In this document: positions 37,428 through 50,831 of the stretch, one piece after another
Position numbering within the stretch: the first letter of the stretch is position 1
Layout of the letters: each line of letters opens with the position of its first letter
Assembly: GCF_036053395.1 (NCBI RefSeq)
Contig: NZ_CP107942.1
Coordinates: forward strand, 2,322,501 to 2,386,500
From: Actinoplanes sp. NBC_00393
Lineage (GTDB): Bacteria; Actinomycetota; Actinomycetes; Mycobacteriales; Micromonosporaceae
Direction: 5' to 3'
Length of the DNA: 64,000 nucleotides
Program-made: the position numbers and the translations under genes
Notes under the pieces: generated by a model
What the model was told of the DNA's origin: nothing
The model's input: the letters and a program-made list of their open reading frames with translations, nothing else
The model's database searches: none

Positions 37428-39722
<2,295 letters not shown>

Positions 39723-44659: not shown

Positions 44660-47600
44660 ATGGAGCACGACCCGGTGACCGTGATGACCGACCTGCGACT
44701 GATCGACCTACCCGCGATCGAGCTCGCAGCAGAGGCGCCGGCGGTGTTCCGGTCCCCGTCCGCCCCGATCCGCCGCACGCTGATCGACATCCTCGACGCG
44801 ACGGTGCACGCCCATCCCGGTGCCCTGGCGATCGACGCCGGCGCGACCGCGCTCACCTACCGCGAGCTGGCCGACGAGGTCGAGGGGCTGCGGGCGACGC
44901 TGGCCGGGCACGGGATCGGCGCCGGCGACCGGGTGGGCGTACGGATCTCGTCCGGCTCGGCGGAGCTCTACCTGGCGATCCTCGGCGTGCTGGCCGCGGG
45001 CGCTGCCTACGTGCCGGTGGACGCCGACGACCCCGAGGAACGCGCCGAACTCGTCTTCGCCGAAGCGGACGTCTGCGCCGTCCTCGGCGACGGTCTGACC
45101 GTTTCGCTCAGGCGTACCCCGCAAGGGCGGACCGGCCGGCCCGAGCCGGCCGACGACGCCTGGATCATCTTCACCTCCGGATCCACCGGCACCCCGAAGG
45201 GGGTGGCGGTCTCGCACGGCGCCGCCGCCGCGTTCGTGGACGCCGAAGCCCAGCTGTTCCTCGCCGACGACGGCGCGGAGCCGCTCGGCCCGCACGACCG
45301 GGTCCTGGCCGGGCTGTCGGTGGCCTTCGACGCCTCCTGCGAGGAGATGTGGCTGGCCTGGCGGTACGGCGCCTGCCTGGTGCCGGCCGCGCGCTCGCTG
45401 GTGCGCAGCGGCGTCGACCTGGGCCCGTGGCTGGCCGAGCAGCGCATCACCGTCGTGTCGACGGTGCCCACGCTGGCCGCGCTGTGGCCGGCCGCGGCGC
45501 TCGACGAGGTCCGGCTGCTGATCTTCGGTGGCGAGGCGTGCCCGCCGGAACTCGCCGAGCGCCTGGCCGTCGAGGGCCGCGAGGTGTGGAACACGTACGG
45601 CCCGACCGAGGCGACCGTGGTCGCCTGTGCCGCCCGGATGACCGGCGAGGGTCCGGTGCGTATCGGGTTGCCGCTGGCCGGCTGGGAGCTGGCCGTGGTC
45701 GACGCGGCCGGTGAGCCGGTCGCGATGGGTGAGACCGGCGAGCTGGTGATCGGCGGGGTGGGCCTGGCCCGCTACCTCGACGCCGCCAAGGACGCCGAGA
45801 AGTTCGCGCCGCTGCCAGCGCTCGACTGGCGGCGCGCGTACCGCAGCGGCGACATCGTGCGCGCCGAACCCGAGGGGCTGCTGTTCCTCGGGCGCGGCGA
45901 TGAACAGGTCAAACTCGGTGGGCGCCGGATCGAGCTGGGCGAGGTGGACGCCGCGCTGCAGGCGCTGCCCGGAGTCGCCGGCGCGGCCGCCGCGGTGAAG
46001 AAGACCGCCGCCGGCAACCAGCTGCTGGTCGGCTATCTGGTGCCGCACGACGGCGAGGGCTTCGATGCCGCGGCCGCGGCGCTGCGCATCCGCGAGCAGC
46101 TGCCGGCCGCGCTGGTTCCGCTGCTGGCCGTCGTCGACGCGCTGCCGACGCGGACGTCCGGCAAGGTGGACCGGGCGGCGCTGCCGTGGCCGCTGGCCAC
46201 CGTCGCCGCGGAGGCCGCCGAACTGAGCGAGACCGAGGCGTGGCTGGCCGGCGGCTGGGAGGAGATTCTCGGGGTACGCCCGACCGAGCCCAGCGCCGAC
46301 TTCTTCAGCAGCGGTGGGAGCAGCCTGAACGCCGCGCAACTGGTCGCCTGGATCCGCGACCGGCACCCGCAGGTGTCCGTCGCCGACATCTACCAGCAGC
46401 CCCGGCTGTCCCAGATGGCCGCCGTCGTCGACGCGCTGGGCACCACCGCGACGACCCGGCGCGAGATCCGGCCCACCCCGCGACGGGCCGGGTTCGCTCA
46501 GGCCGTACTGATGCTCCCGATGCTCGCCCTGGTGGGACTGCGCTGGCTGACCGTGCTCGCCGCGCTCGGCAACGTGCTGTCCCTGATCGCGCCGGCGCCC
46601 TGGGCGCCGCAGGTGTCCTGGTGGTGGATCGCGGCCGGCTGGGCGCTGCTGCTGAGCCCGGCCGGGCGGATCGCCGTGTCCGCGGCCGGCGCCCGGCTGC
46701 TGCTGCGCGGCGTGCGACCCGGCGCCTATCCGCGTGGCGGCAGCGTGCACCTGCGGCTGTGGGCGGCCGAGCGGCTCGCCGAGCTGACCGGCGCGACCGG
46801 CGTCGCCGGCGCCGGCTGGATGATCACGTACGCGAAGGCGCTCGGCGCCCAGATCGGCCCGGACGTCGACCTGCACTCCGCGCCGCCGGTCACCGGCCTG
46901 CTCAAGCTCGGCCGCGGCGCCGCGATCGAACCCGAGGCCGACCTGTCCGGCCACTGGGTCGACGGCGACGTGGTGCGGATCGGCCGGGTGCGTGTCGGTG
47001 CGGGCGCCCGGGTCGGCTCCCGCAGCACGCTGATGCCCGGCGCCCGGATCGGCAAGGGCGCGAAGATCGCCGCCGGTTCCACCGTGACCGGCGCGGTCCC
47101 GGCCAACCAGCGCTGGGCCGGCTCACCGGCCGTGCCCGCCGCCGCCAAGGACGCCGCGCCCTGGCCGGCCCAGCGTCCCGAACGTTCGCGGGCGCGCTCC
47201 CGTTTCTGGGTGGCCGCGTACAGCCTGACCGCGCAACTGCTCGGCCTGGTCCCGGTGCTGGCCGCGCTGCCGGCACTCGCCCTGCTCGGCTGGACGGTCG
47301 CCGACAAGCCGGCGCTGAGCTCCGCGCTGATCGCCGTCCCGGCTGCCACTCTCGCCTACCTCGCCGGCTACGCCCTGCTGGTCCTCGTCGCCGTCCGCGC
47401 GCTCAGCATCGGCATGCGAGCCGGCTTCTACCCGGTCCACAGCCGGGTCGCCTGGCAGGTGTGGACCACCGAACGCCTGATGGGGATGGCCCGCATCGGG
47501 CTGTTCCCGATGTACGCCAGCCTGTTCACCCCGGTCTGGCTGCGCCTGCTCGGCGCCAAGGTCGGCCGCGGTGTGGAGGCCTCCACCGTGCTCGCGCTGC

Positions 47601-48571
47601 CCGCGATGACAACCGTCGACGACGGCGCGTTCCTGGCCGACGACACCATGGTCGCCACCTACGAGCTCAGCCACGGCTGGCTGCGGGTCGCCCCGGCCCG
47701 GATCGGCAAGCAGGCGTTCCTCGGCAACTCCGGGATGGCCGCGCCCGGCCGCTCGGTGCCCAAGCGGGGCCTGGTCGGGGTGCTGTCGTCCGCGCCGCGC
47801 AAGGCGAAGAAGGGCTCGTCGTGGCTCGGCGCCCCGCCGATGCCGCTGCGCCGCACCGTCGAGGCCGCCGACACCAGCCGCACCTTCGCGCCGCCGCTGC
47901 GGCTCAAGCTGGCCCGCGCCGCGATCGAACTGTGCCGTGTCATCCCGGTGATGTGCGCCGGCGCGCTGGCCGTGCTCGTGCTCGCCGCGCTGGCCCTGAT
48001 CTGGAACTCCGCCGGTGGCTGGGTGGCCGCGCTGGCCGCCGGACCGGTGCTGTTCGCCGCCGCGATCGGCGCCGCGCTGACCGCGGCGGCCGCGAAGTGG
48101 CTGCTGGTGGGCCGCTTCCGGGTCACCGACCGGGCGCTGTGGACGTCGTTCGTCTGGCGCAACGAGCTCGCCGACACGTTCGTCGAGGTGCTCGCCGCGC
48201 CGTGGCTGTTCAGCTTCGCCACCGGCACGCCGCTGCTGAGCATGTGGCTGCGCACGCTCGGCGCCCGGATCGGCCGCGGTGTCTGGCTGGAGACCTTCTG
48301 GCTGCCTGAGTACGATCTGGTGCGGCTCGGTGCGGGCGCCACCGTGAACCGGGGGTGCGTGGTGCAGACCCACCTGTTCCATGATCGGATCATGAGCATG
48401 GACGAGGTCACTCTGGGCGCGGGCGCCACACTCGGCCCGCACGGCATCGTGCTGCCCGGCGCCAGCATCGGCGCGCGCACCACTGTCGGTCCCGGCTCAC
48501 TGATCACCCGCGGTGACGCGGTGCCCGAGGACAGCCGGTGGCTCGGCAACCCCATCGCGGCGTGGAGATGA
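44660..48571 (+). CDS. Pls/PosA-type single-module NRPS, candidate poly-lysine synthetase
   Basis: 1303 residues. Adenylation domain about 35-510: FTSGSTGTPKG, FDASCEEMW, NTYGPTEATVV, YRSGD, LGRGDEQVKLGGRRIELGE and K502. Carrier domain about 520-590: FFSSGGSSLNAAQL with S555 as phosphopantetheine site. Three soluble left-handed beta-helix domains (hexapeptide runs near 790-840, about 1000-1030 and 1215-1290) follow, separated by membrane helix pairs (about 612-665, 865-940, 1115-1180). There is no condensation or thioesterase domain. This is the architecture and length of epsilon-poly-L-lysine synthetase (about 1319 residues). Pocket residues read D224 A225 E228 S267 I288 G290 T312 V320 V321 K502, close to the lysine code DAESIGSVAK of bacitracin synthetase. 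ATG 44684 is an alternative start. Confidence 0.9.
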   Translation: MEHDPVTVMTDLRLIDLPAIELAAEAPAVFRSPSAPIRRTLIDILDATVHAHPGALAIDAGATALTYRELADEVEGLRATLAGHGIGAGDRVGVRISSGSAELYLAILGVLAAGAAYVPVDADDPEERAELVFAEADVCAVLGDGLTVSLRRTPQGRTGRPEPADDAWIIFTSGSTGTPKGVAVSHGAAAAFVDAEAQLFLADDGAEPLGPHDRVLAGLSVAFDASCEEMWLAWRYGACLVPAARSLVRSGVDLGPWLAEQRITVVSTVPTLAALWPAAALDEVRLLIFGGEACPPELAERLAVEGREVWNTYGPTEATVVACAARMTGEGPVRIGLPLAGWELAVVDAAGEPVAMGETGELVIGGVGLARYLDAAKDAEKFAPLPALDWRRAYRSGDIVRAEPEGLLFLGRGDEQVKLGGRRIELGEVDAALQALPGVAGAAAAVKKTAAGNQLLVGYLVPHDGEGFDAAAAALRIREQLPAALVPLLAVVDALPTRTSGKVDRAALPWPLATVAAEAAELSETEAWLAGGWEEILGVRPTEPSADFFSSGGSSLNAAQLVAWIRDRHPQVSVADIYQQPRLSQMAAVVDALGTTATTRREIRPTPRRAGFAQAVLMLPMLALVGLRWLTVLAALGNVLSLIAPAPWAPQVSWWWIAAGWALLLSPAGRIAVSAAGARLLLRGVRPGAYPRGGSVHLRLWAAERLAELTGATGVAGAGWMITYAKALGAQIGPDVDLHSAPPVTGLLKLGRGAAIEPEADLSGHWVDGDVVRIGRVRVGAGARVGSRSTLMPGARIGKGAKIAAGSTVTGAVPANQRWAGSPAVPAAAKDAAPWPAQRPERSRARSRFWVAAYSLTAQLLGLVPVLAALPALALLGWTVADKPALSSALIAVPAATLAYLAGYALLVLVAVRALSIGMRAGFYPVHSRVAWQVWTTERLMGMARIGLFPMYASLFTPVWLRLLGAKVGRGVEASTVLALPAMTTVDDGAFLADDTMVATYELSHGWLRVAPARIGKQAFLGNSGMAAPGRSVPKRGLVGVLSSAPRKAKKGSSWLGAPPMPLRRTVEAADTSRTFAPPLRLKLARAAIELCRVIPVMCAGALAVLVLAALALIWNSAGGWVAALAAGPVLFAAAIGAALTAAAAKWLLVGRFRVTDRALWTSFVWRNELADTFVEVLAAPWLFSFATGTPLLSMWLRTLGARIGRGVWLETFWLPEYDLVRLGAGATVNRGCVVQTHLFHDRIMSMDEVTLGAGATLGPHGIVLPGASIGARTTVGPGSLITRGDAVPEDSRWLGNPIAAWR

Positions 48572-49890
48572 CCGCTGCCGCGACGCCCGGCGCCGATCAC
48601 TCCACCGACTCCTACCTGCCCGCGCACGGCAACGGCGGGTACCGAGTGCTGCACTACGACCTCGAGCTCGACTACCGGGTGGTGTCGAACCGGCTGGGCG
48701 GCAAGGCGGTCATCACCGCGCGTGCCGTCCAGTCGCTGTCACGCTTCAGCCTCGACCTCGGCCAGTTCCGGGTGCAGGACGTCCGGGTCGACGGACGCCC
48801 GGCCAAGTTCACCCACGGTCGCGGCAAACTGCGGATCAAACCGGAACGGCCGATCGGGTACGGCGCCACCTTCAAGACCGAGATCCGGTACGCCGGAACA
48901 CCCGTGCCGATCGCCGGCCGCTGGGGCGACATCGGCTGGGACGAGCTGACCGACGGGGTGCTCGTCGCCAGCCAGCCGAACGGGGCGCCGTCCTGGTTCC
49001 CGTGCAACGACCGGCCCGACGACAAGGCGAGTTTCCTGGTCACCTTGACCACCGCGTCGGCGTACACCGTCCTAGCCACCGGCGACCTGGTCTCCCGCCG
49101 CCGCCGGGCCGGCACCACCACCTGGGTGTACGAGCGCAACGAACCCACCGCCCCGTACCTGATGGGCATCCAGATCGGGCGCTACGAGCACGTCGACCTG
49201 GCCGCCGGGGGAGCGGTGGCGCAGCGGGCCGCGATCCCGCCGCGGCTGCGCACGCTGTTCCGGCACGACTTCGGCCGGCACGGCGAGATCATGGCGAGCT
49301 TCGAGGGGCTGTTCGGGCCGTACCCGTTCCGCGAGTACGTCGTGGTGGTCACCGACGACGACCTGGACGACCCGGTCGAGGCGCAGGGCATGGCCGTGTT
49401 CGGGCGCAACCACGTCGACGGGCGGCGCACCCACGAGCGGCTGGTCGCCCACGAGCTCGCCCACCAGTGGTTCGGCAACAGTCTGACGGTCGCGGACTGG
49501 CGGCACATCTGGCTCAACGAGGGCTTTGCGACGTACGCCGAATGGTTGTGGTCCGGGGTTTCCGGCGGCCCTTCGGTTGCCGCCCACGCCGCCCAGTGGC
49601 ATGCCTGGGTGGCCACGCACCGGCCGCAGGTCGCGATCGCGAACCCCGGCGTGGACCGGATGTTCGACCCGCTGGTCTACAAGCGTGGCGCGCTGACCCT
49701 GCACGCCCTGCGGCTGCGGCTCGGTGACACGGCATTCTTCGCGCTGCTGCGCTCCTGGTCCGCCGAGCACCAGCATCAGATCGTGACGACCGAGCAGTTC
49801 CGCGCGCACGCCCAGCGCTTCGCGCCCCGGTCGCTGAACGATCTCTTCACCGCGTGGCTGGACCGCCCGGCGCTGCCCCGGCTGGGGTGA
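48568..49890 (+). CDS. M1-family metallopeptidase coupled to the Pls-like synthetase
   Basis: 440 residues, starting in an ATGA overlap with the synthetase stop. The M1 N-terminal beta domain (about 25-205) and thermolysin-like domain are present, with zinc motif HELAHQWFGN (H295, E296, H299) and third ligand E318 in NEGFATYAEW. The exopeptidase motif GxMEN, which binds the free N-terminus, reads QGMAVF (273-278), so the key Glu is missing. The protein is short: the large C-terminal helical domain of aminopeptidase N is absent. There is no signal peptide. Coupling suggests it trims, degrades or protects against the polymer; M1-type enzymes degrade epsilon-poly-lysine in producers. Confidence 0.88.
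   Translation: MTAAATPGADHSTDSYLPAHGNGGYRVLHYDLELDYRVVSNRLGGKAVITARAVQSLSRFSLDLGQFRVQDVRVDGRPAKFTHGRGKLRIKPERPIGYGATFKTEIRYAGTPVPIAGRWGDIGWDELTDGVLVASQPNGAPSWFPCNDRPDDKASFLVTLTTASAYTVLATGDLVSRRRRAGTTTWVYERNEPTAPYLMGIQIGRYEHVDLAAGGAVAQRAAIPPRLRTLFRHDFGRHGEIMASFEGLFGPYPFREYVVVVTDDDLDDPVEAQGMAVFGRNHVDGRRTHERLVAHELAHQWFGNSLTVADWRHIWLNEGFATYAEWLWSGVSGGPSVAAHAAQWHAWVATHRPQVAIANPGVDRMFDPLVYKRGALTLHALRLRLGDTAFFALLRSWSAEHQHQIVTTEQFRAHAQRFAPRSLNDLFTAWLDRPALPRLG

Positions 49891-50222: not shown

Positions 50223-50831
<609 letters not shown>

Follow-up and report, generated by a model that had tools for sequence, protein, structure and literature searches.

The window described here is a 64,000-nucleotide stretch of the genome of Actinoplanes sp. 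NBC_00393, which is 11.43 Mb in size and lies on one contig. It contains a pair of genes on the forward strand (Table 1). The first, pls, very probably encodes the Actinoplanes version of the well-known ε-poly-L-lysine (ε-PL) synthetase; the second encodes an M1 metallopeptidase resembling PldII. No tRNA or Rfam family was found in the window.

Synthetase gene and domain architecture

The pls open reading frame (ORF) begins with ATG, and its coordinates and frame are exactly those given in a first-pass annotation made from the sequence alone. The product has five Pfam matches: AMP-binding (residues 46-371), PP-binding (528-589) and hexapeptide repeats; no condensation (C) or thioesterase (TE) family is among the five. 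Core motifs A3, A5, A7, A8 and A10 are all found in the adenylation (A) domain. The NCBIfam model TIGR02353, "Pls/PosA family non-ribosomal peptide synthetase", has a cut-off of 423 bits; the match reaches 711 bits (E 1.5e-213), so a chance match can be excluded.

The C-terminal part (residues 605-1303) was modelled with AlphaFold2, the input alignment having 42 sequences; mean pLDDT is 90.9 and pTM 0.91. In the model, long helices are followed by a beta-helix, three times in succession; we take these units to correspond to the transmembrane segments and domains C1-C3 described in published work. The top Foldseek matches of the model are mostly hexapeptide-repeat acetyltransferases, of the general hexapeptide type and with low TM-scores. 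Pls enzymes have one A and thiolation (T) module and, after it, a TIGR02353 membrane region in which three domains stand in tandem, and the window protein has this architecture. The first-pass annotation had described one A and one T domain, no C or TE domain and three membrane-flanked beta-helix domains, and Pfam, NCBIfam and AlphaFold2 bear this out.

Table 1. Features of the pls locus (positions are those of the window)
Feature	Position	Strand	Basis
pls, very probable epsilon-poly-L-lysine synthetase (Pls/PosA family, 1303 aa)	44660..48571	+	ORF; TIGR02353 711 bits; 7WEW is top PDB match
Adenylation domain, residues 25-513, pocket DAESIGTVVK same as S. albulus Pls	44732..46198	+	HMMER alignment to 7wew_A, 672 bits; scripted pocket; core motifs
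Thiolation (carrier) domain, residues 528-589, DFFSSGGSS motif at residue 547	46241..46426	+	PF00550, 41.7 bits; motif
Membrane C-terminal region, residues 613-1299, three units, each of hydrophobic helices with a beta-helix	46496..48556	+	TIGR02353 613-1299; hydropathy peaks; AlphaFold2 pLDDT 90.9
Beta-helix unit 1, residues ~730-824 (limits by eye from model)	46847..47131	+	AlphaFold2 model; PF00132 hexapeptide repeat 777-811
Beta-helix unit 2, residues ~965-1064 (limits by eye)	47552..47851	+	AlphaFold2 model
Beta-helix unit 3, residues ~1202-1303 (limits by eye), QTHLFHDR motif at residue 1236	48263..48568	+	AlphaFold2 model
pldII-like M1 metallopeptidase, 440 aa, HELAH-X18-E zinc motif at residue 295	48568..49890	+	PF01433 96 bits; PF17900 (search run on a longer ORF beginning at 48538)
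ATGA overlap of peptidase start codon and pls stop codon	48568..48571	+	Sequence

Long antisense ORFs overlie pls (e.g. 44708-46954, reverse strand); by eye these were taken as artefacts of high GC content. A scan with the sigma-70 consensus around the operon gave no promoter-like or terminator-like site; this consensus says little for an actinomycete.

Binding pocket and adenylation-domain tree

The top PDB match of the A domain is 7WEW, the crystallised A domain of the Streptomyces albulus ε-PL synthetase (672 bits; the next match scores 363). The two are identical at 331 of 478 aligned positions (69%), and a scripted alignment gives the same pocket, DAESIGTVVK, in both (10/10 positions). 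Pocket columns were placed by motif, from the GrsA positions; the same columns reproduce the nine leading letters of the ten printed for PosA in PMC10522769, the tenth lying outside the PosA segment used. The first-pass annotation had read the same ten letters by eye. It had compared them with the lysine module of bacitracin synthetase, and its count of eight matches in ten is arithmetically correct, conditional on its own code for that module (DAESIGSVAK). It overlooked the full identity to a characterised ε-PL synthetase and the PldII-like peptidase downstream.

Eighty named loci were retrieved with peptide patterns taken from 7WEW, of which two lie in the pocket, and a further 20 were chosen by the C-terminal family model, independently of the pocket. 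Together with 7WEW and the window they give 102 rows, of which 98 have DAESIGTVVK; L083 has one change, L136 and L137 have other codes, and the pocket of L061 is unreadable, its best ORF being a 641-aa fragment. The code is present in 18 of the 20 loci chosen by the C-terminal model; the other two were fetched as weaker second copies. In the 17 same-genus genomes, besides that of the window, whose pocket was read, the code is present throughout. The C-terminal motif THLFHDR occurs in 96 of the 100 locus ORFs, the exceptions being L084 and L086, which are truncated by a contig end, and L136 and L137.

According to PMC10522769, pocket position 2 tracks the chain length of the substrate: phenylalanine goes with diaminopropionate or diaminobutyrate, methionine with ornithine and alanine with lysine, and a change from methionine to alanine gave nearly 10-fold more use of lysine. 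The pls product has alanine here. PosA (DMEHNGTVSK) has methionine and reads DMEHNGTVS- at our columns. L137 and eleven proteins picked from 120 listed members of the Pls/PosA family have phenylalanine, with the code DFEY[VLM]GTVTK. Both PosA and these DFEY proteins differ from the pls product at positions 2, 4, 5 and 9.

Fifty-three A domains were placed in a quick maximum-likelihood tree with SH-aLRT support, which agrees with the pocket. The tree contains 34 of the 97 lysine-code loci (96 exact plus L083), the window A domain, 7WEW, the PosA segment, L136, L137, the eleven listed family proteins and three ordinary non-ribosomal peptide synthetase domains from the same genome. A branch with SH-aLRT 100 separates all 36 lysine-code rows, including L083 with its single change, from the others. 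This clade includes 7WEW as well as two Kitasatospora aureofaciens loci, and a Pls of that species has been characterised; in this tree, which lacked PddA and PDAP reference sequences, the window A domain thus falls within the clade of characterised Pls. The 12 DFEY rows, of the diaminobutyrate type, form a separate group (SH-aLRT 100), and PosA and L136 are also outside the lysine clade. One DFEY row, P0201 from Streptomyces celluloflavus (DFEYVGTVTK), is probably the characterised poly-diaminobutyrate synthetase of that species, which is known to make this polymer (PMC8117764). The ε-poly-β-lysine synthetases are placed by PMC10522769 on a separate branch within a group of PDAP/PDAB enzymes. 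Clustering with homologues of other substrates, which would have told against the lysine homopolymer proposed in the first-pass annotation, was not seen in the tree.

It is very unlikely that another cationic homopolymer is made, with L-ornithine, diaminobutyrate, diaminopropionate or β-lysine as the substrate of the synthetase. The same architecture is found in enzymes making polymers of other diamino acids (PMC8117764, PMC10522769), L136 and L137 exceed the TIGR02353 cut-off with other codes, and the family's A domains can be permissive, as in the case of PosA, which was crystallised with lysine (PMC10522769). However, PosA and the DFEY proteins differ in pocket from the window enzyme, and both lie outside its clade. 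The peptidase context accompanies Pls (PMC8117764), and L136 and L137 have no peptidase. A class III aminotransferase with the diaminobutyrate transaminase fold is encoded 5.3 kb upstream of pls (37428-39350, reverse strand), but it reaches 218 bits against a cut-off of 402 for the diaminobutyrate model, and many class III models match it better. Homologues are found in 0/17 genus loci and 1/80 named loci. Aside from this gene, Pfam named no diamino-acid biosynthesis gene in the 19 neighbouring ORFs, for which annotation is partial. By NCBIfam the aminotransferase is generic, below the cut-off of each model shown; as the match does not start before residue 225-236, the gene probably begins inside the ORF.

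L-lysine is much more likely to be the substrate than ornithine, diaminobutyrate or β-lysine. These three had been kept as alternatives by the first-pass annotation and are now disfavoured, as the PosA and DFEY codes differ and the β-lysine enzymes branch elsewhere (PMC10522769); its lysine homopolymer remains the best reading, supported by the pocket identity and the A-domain clade. By analogy with the characterised enzyme, we hold with high confidence that the pls product would be an ε-PL synthetase making a polymer of L-lysine.

L136 is a second Pls-family copy in a genome of the same genus (G005), with the code DGESVSVVNK and no M1 neighbour found. A close code, DGESISVVNK, is reported from Methylomarinum, with the substrate given as unknown (PMC10522769).

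Overlapping peptidase gene and conservation in the genus

The M1 gene lies directly downstream of pls and overlaps its stop codon, as in a pls-pldII operon, and from this overlap the two genes are probably translationally coupled. In S. albulus, where pls and pldII are translationally coupled, the pldII product is reported to be the main ε-PL hydrolase (PMC9223678); PMC8117764 describes the pls-peptidase operon context as not common to the other three synthetases. An [ATG]TGA sequence is present at the pls stop in 68 of the 87 loci having the peptidase, and the zinc motif HEXXH-X18-E is intact in the window peptidase and in 87/87 relatives. The window peptidase is 44% identical over 436 aa to the M1 protein beside the S. 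albulus-like pls of L039, and by analogy it may be an ε-PL hydrolase of the PldII type. Three more M1 peptidases are encoded in the host genome (G000:C1; 2647936-2649252, 9207504-9208784 and 10050199-10051527), with 40-43% identity to the pldII-like protein; these could be second ε-PL hydrolases or ordinary aminopeptidases.

The gene pair is standard in the genus. TIGR02353 is over cut-off in 63 of 67 genus genomes (in G032 only by summing frame pieces), and the same 63 have an M1 match of at least 71% identity. G030, G196, G241 and G244 have neither the synthetase nor a close peptidase, their M1 proteins being only about 38-40% identical. The peptidase is 3' of the synthetase on the same strand in 63/63 genomes, at most 235 bases from the family match in 62 and 1409 bases from it in G019. 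As a control, 14 well-known genomes were searched and one, Corynebacterium glutamicum, is over the TIGR02353 cut-off. Of ten window neighbours compared, none occurs in more than 1/17 genus loci; pls and the peptidase occur together in 17/17. The pair is conserved and the neighbouring genes vary, which indicates a unit of two genes that almost all of the genus has retained; the same comparison rules out a larger cluster of genes at the locus. A recently acquired oddity is likewise ruled out: in the tree, the nearest rows to the window A domain come from orthologues of the same genus and from named loci of Actinoplanes and Paractinoplanes, and the most similar named proteins belong to Actinoplanes. 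The first-pass annotation was right to place the gene outside the classic Streptomyces producers, but this is not unusual given the 63 genus genomes, the C. variabile Pls and a published Actinoplanes cluster.

Several points weigh against ε-PL production or limit the evidence for it. Codes are not proof: an enzyme predicted to use β-lysine prefers diaminopropionate (PMC4668381). The 80 named loci are not independent, and their code sharing is partly by construction, because pocket patterns were used for retrieval. The tree has no bootstraps, and long-branch warnings were given for PosA, L136 and the outgroup. Two sources disagree on the role of the peptidase: in Streptomyces, inactivation of Pld and PldII left ε-PL amount and chain length unchanged according to a review (PMC8506220), whereas repression of pldII altered the ε-PL size distribution in PMC9223678. 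The peptidase is present in 69/80 named loci; of the 11 without it, L041, L084, L086 and L091 have less than 700 bases of downstream sequence, and L045, L048, L049, L054, L067, L083 and L098 lack it despite enough sequence. Four of these seven are Kitasatospora, a genus with known producers, so the peptidase is not needed for ε-PL. According to PMC8117764, ε-PL was undetectable both in C. variabile and in C. glutamicum expressing C. variabile Pls, so the window pathway may be silent too.

A silent or remnant operon from which no polymer is made is nevertheless extremely unlikely. In C. variabile, Pls was absent from the detected proteome and no ε-PL was seen in culture (PMC8117764), and we found no report of ε-PL from Actinoplanes in searches of an open-access library. 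However, a pathway silent in a single culture condition has not thereby lost its function; the pls frame is intact across 1303 codons, neither the core motifs nor the zinc motif is missing, and retention of the pair in 63/67 genus genomes implies selection.

Other observations were made on these loci. L048 (K. aureofaciens) and L098 (Streptomyces sp. MJM8645) have lysine-code pls genes with GTGA at the stop and no M1 gene found downstream; another gene may be coupled there. G013 and G022, from the same genus, each have two high-scoring Pls-family matches. A gene for a TMEM175-type potassium channel (50223-50831, reverse strand) lies downstream of the operon and convergent to it; it was not found near pls in the 17 genus loci.

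At family level, 101 of 200 genomes (at least 95% completeness) are over the TIGR02353 cut-off. The pocket was read in seven of the 101: one (L145) has the lysine code and six have another. Pls-family synthetases with the pocket DFECLSVV[TS]K are found in L139, L140 and L143 (genus g37) and in L141, L142 and L144 (genus g51) of the window's family. In L139 and L140 the C-terminus is extended by about 300 aa that include a WTLKEAFAR motif, of a kind typical for Sfp-type phosphopantetheinyl transferases; a similar extension, carrying a related motif, is present in L143. In L139, no phosphopantetheinyl transferase domain is named by Pfam or among the 25 best NCBIfam matches. DFECLSVV[TS]K is not among the codes named in the available part of PMC10522769, and these synthetases look more novel than that of the window.

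Proposed pathway and relation to known systems

By analogy with characterised relatives, which serve as the model for substrate, linkage, export and the role of the peptidase, the A domain would form lysyl-AMP and the carrier domain would hold lysine as a thioester. The three membrane-anchored beta-helix units would link lysines iteratively, by amides of the side chain, into a cationic ε-linked homopolymer, which would be exported from the cell. The coupled PldII-type M1 peptidase would hydrolyse the polymer, perhaps for self-protection or recycling.

On its own, the locus adds one predicted ε-PL operon to a family for which crystal structures, assays and an antiSMASH class already exist. The gene is standard in the genus and not a new pathway; its core-gene status alone is mildly surprising. 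One possible but doubtful explanation is that ε-PL in Actinoplanes is a conserved product of the genus rather than a sporadic antibiotic. Here pls and pldII would be a make-and-degrade pair with a physiological role, as an envelope, spore, counter-ion or stress polymer under controlled turnover. The strict pairing of a synthetase gene with a hydrolase-type gene in a non-model actinomycete genus makes the natural role of ε-PL testable.

The closest characterised system is that of S. albulus (7WEW), which is like the window locus in all ten pocket positions, in domain order and in the M1 peptidase coupled to pls (PMC9223678). The membrane part is more distant: it shares 52% identity with that of L039, a locus whose A domain matches 7WEW at 92% identity. 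C. variabile Pls, compared here by its published description, is likewise a non-Streptomyces enzyme in an operon with a peptidase, and it makes ε-PL when expressed in S. coelicolor (PMC8117764). The δ-poly-L-ornithine synthetase PosA of Acinetobacter baumannii (8G95) has a similar architecture (PMC10522769) but differs in its pocket, in its position outside the lysine clade and in its single-gene operon (PMC10522769). The poly-diaminobutyrate type (P0201) is of the Pls/PosA family like the window enzyme and differs from it in pocket and clade.

Many orthologues of the window gene already bear the NCBI name Pls/PosA family synthetase. P0060 of Actinoplanes sp. SE50 is 84% identical to the window synthetase and is apparently its direct orthologue, at species-level divergence. 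In SE50/110, antiSMASH gives a NAPAA cluster at 3,655,404-3,689,309 with 100% similarity to ε-poly-L-lysine, and the available part of PMC11626248 reports no ε-PL from that strain; the same listing is given for an Amycolatopsis (PMC11004387). The TIGR02353 match of the same-genus genome G023 (3,672,225-3,674,273) falls inside this published interval.

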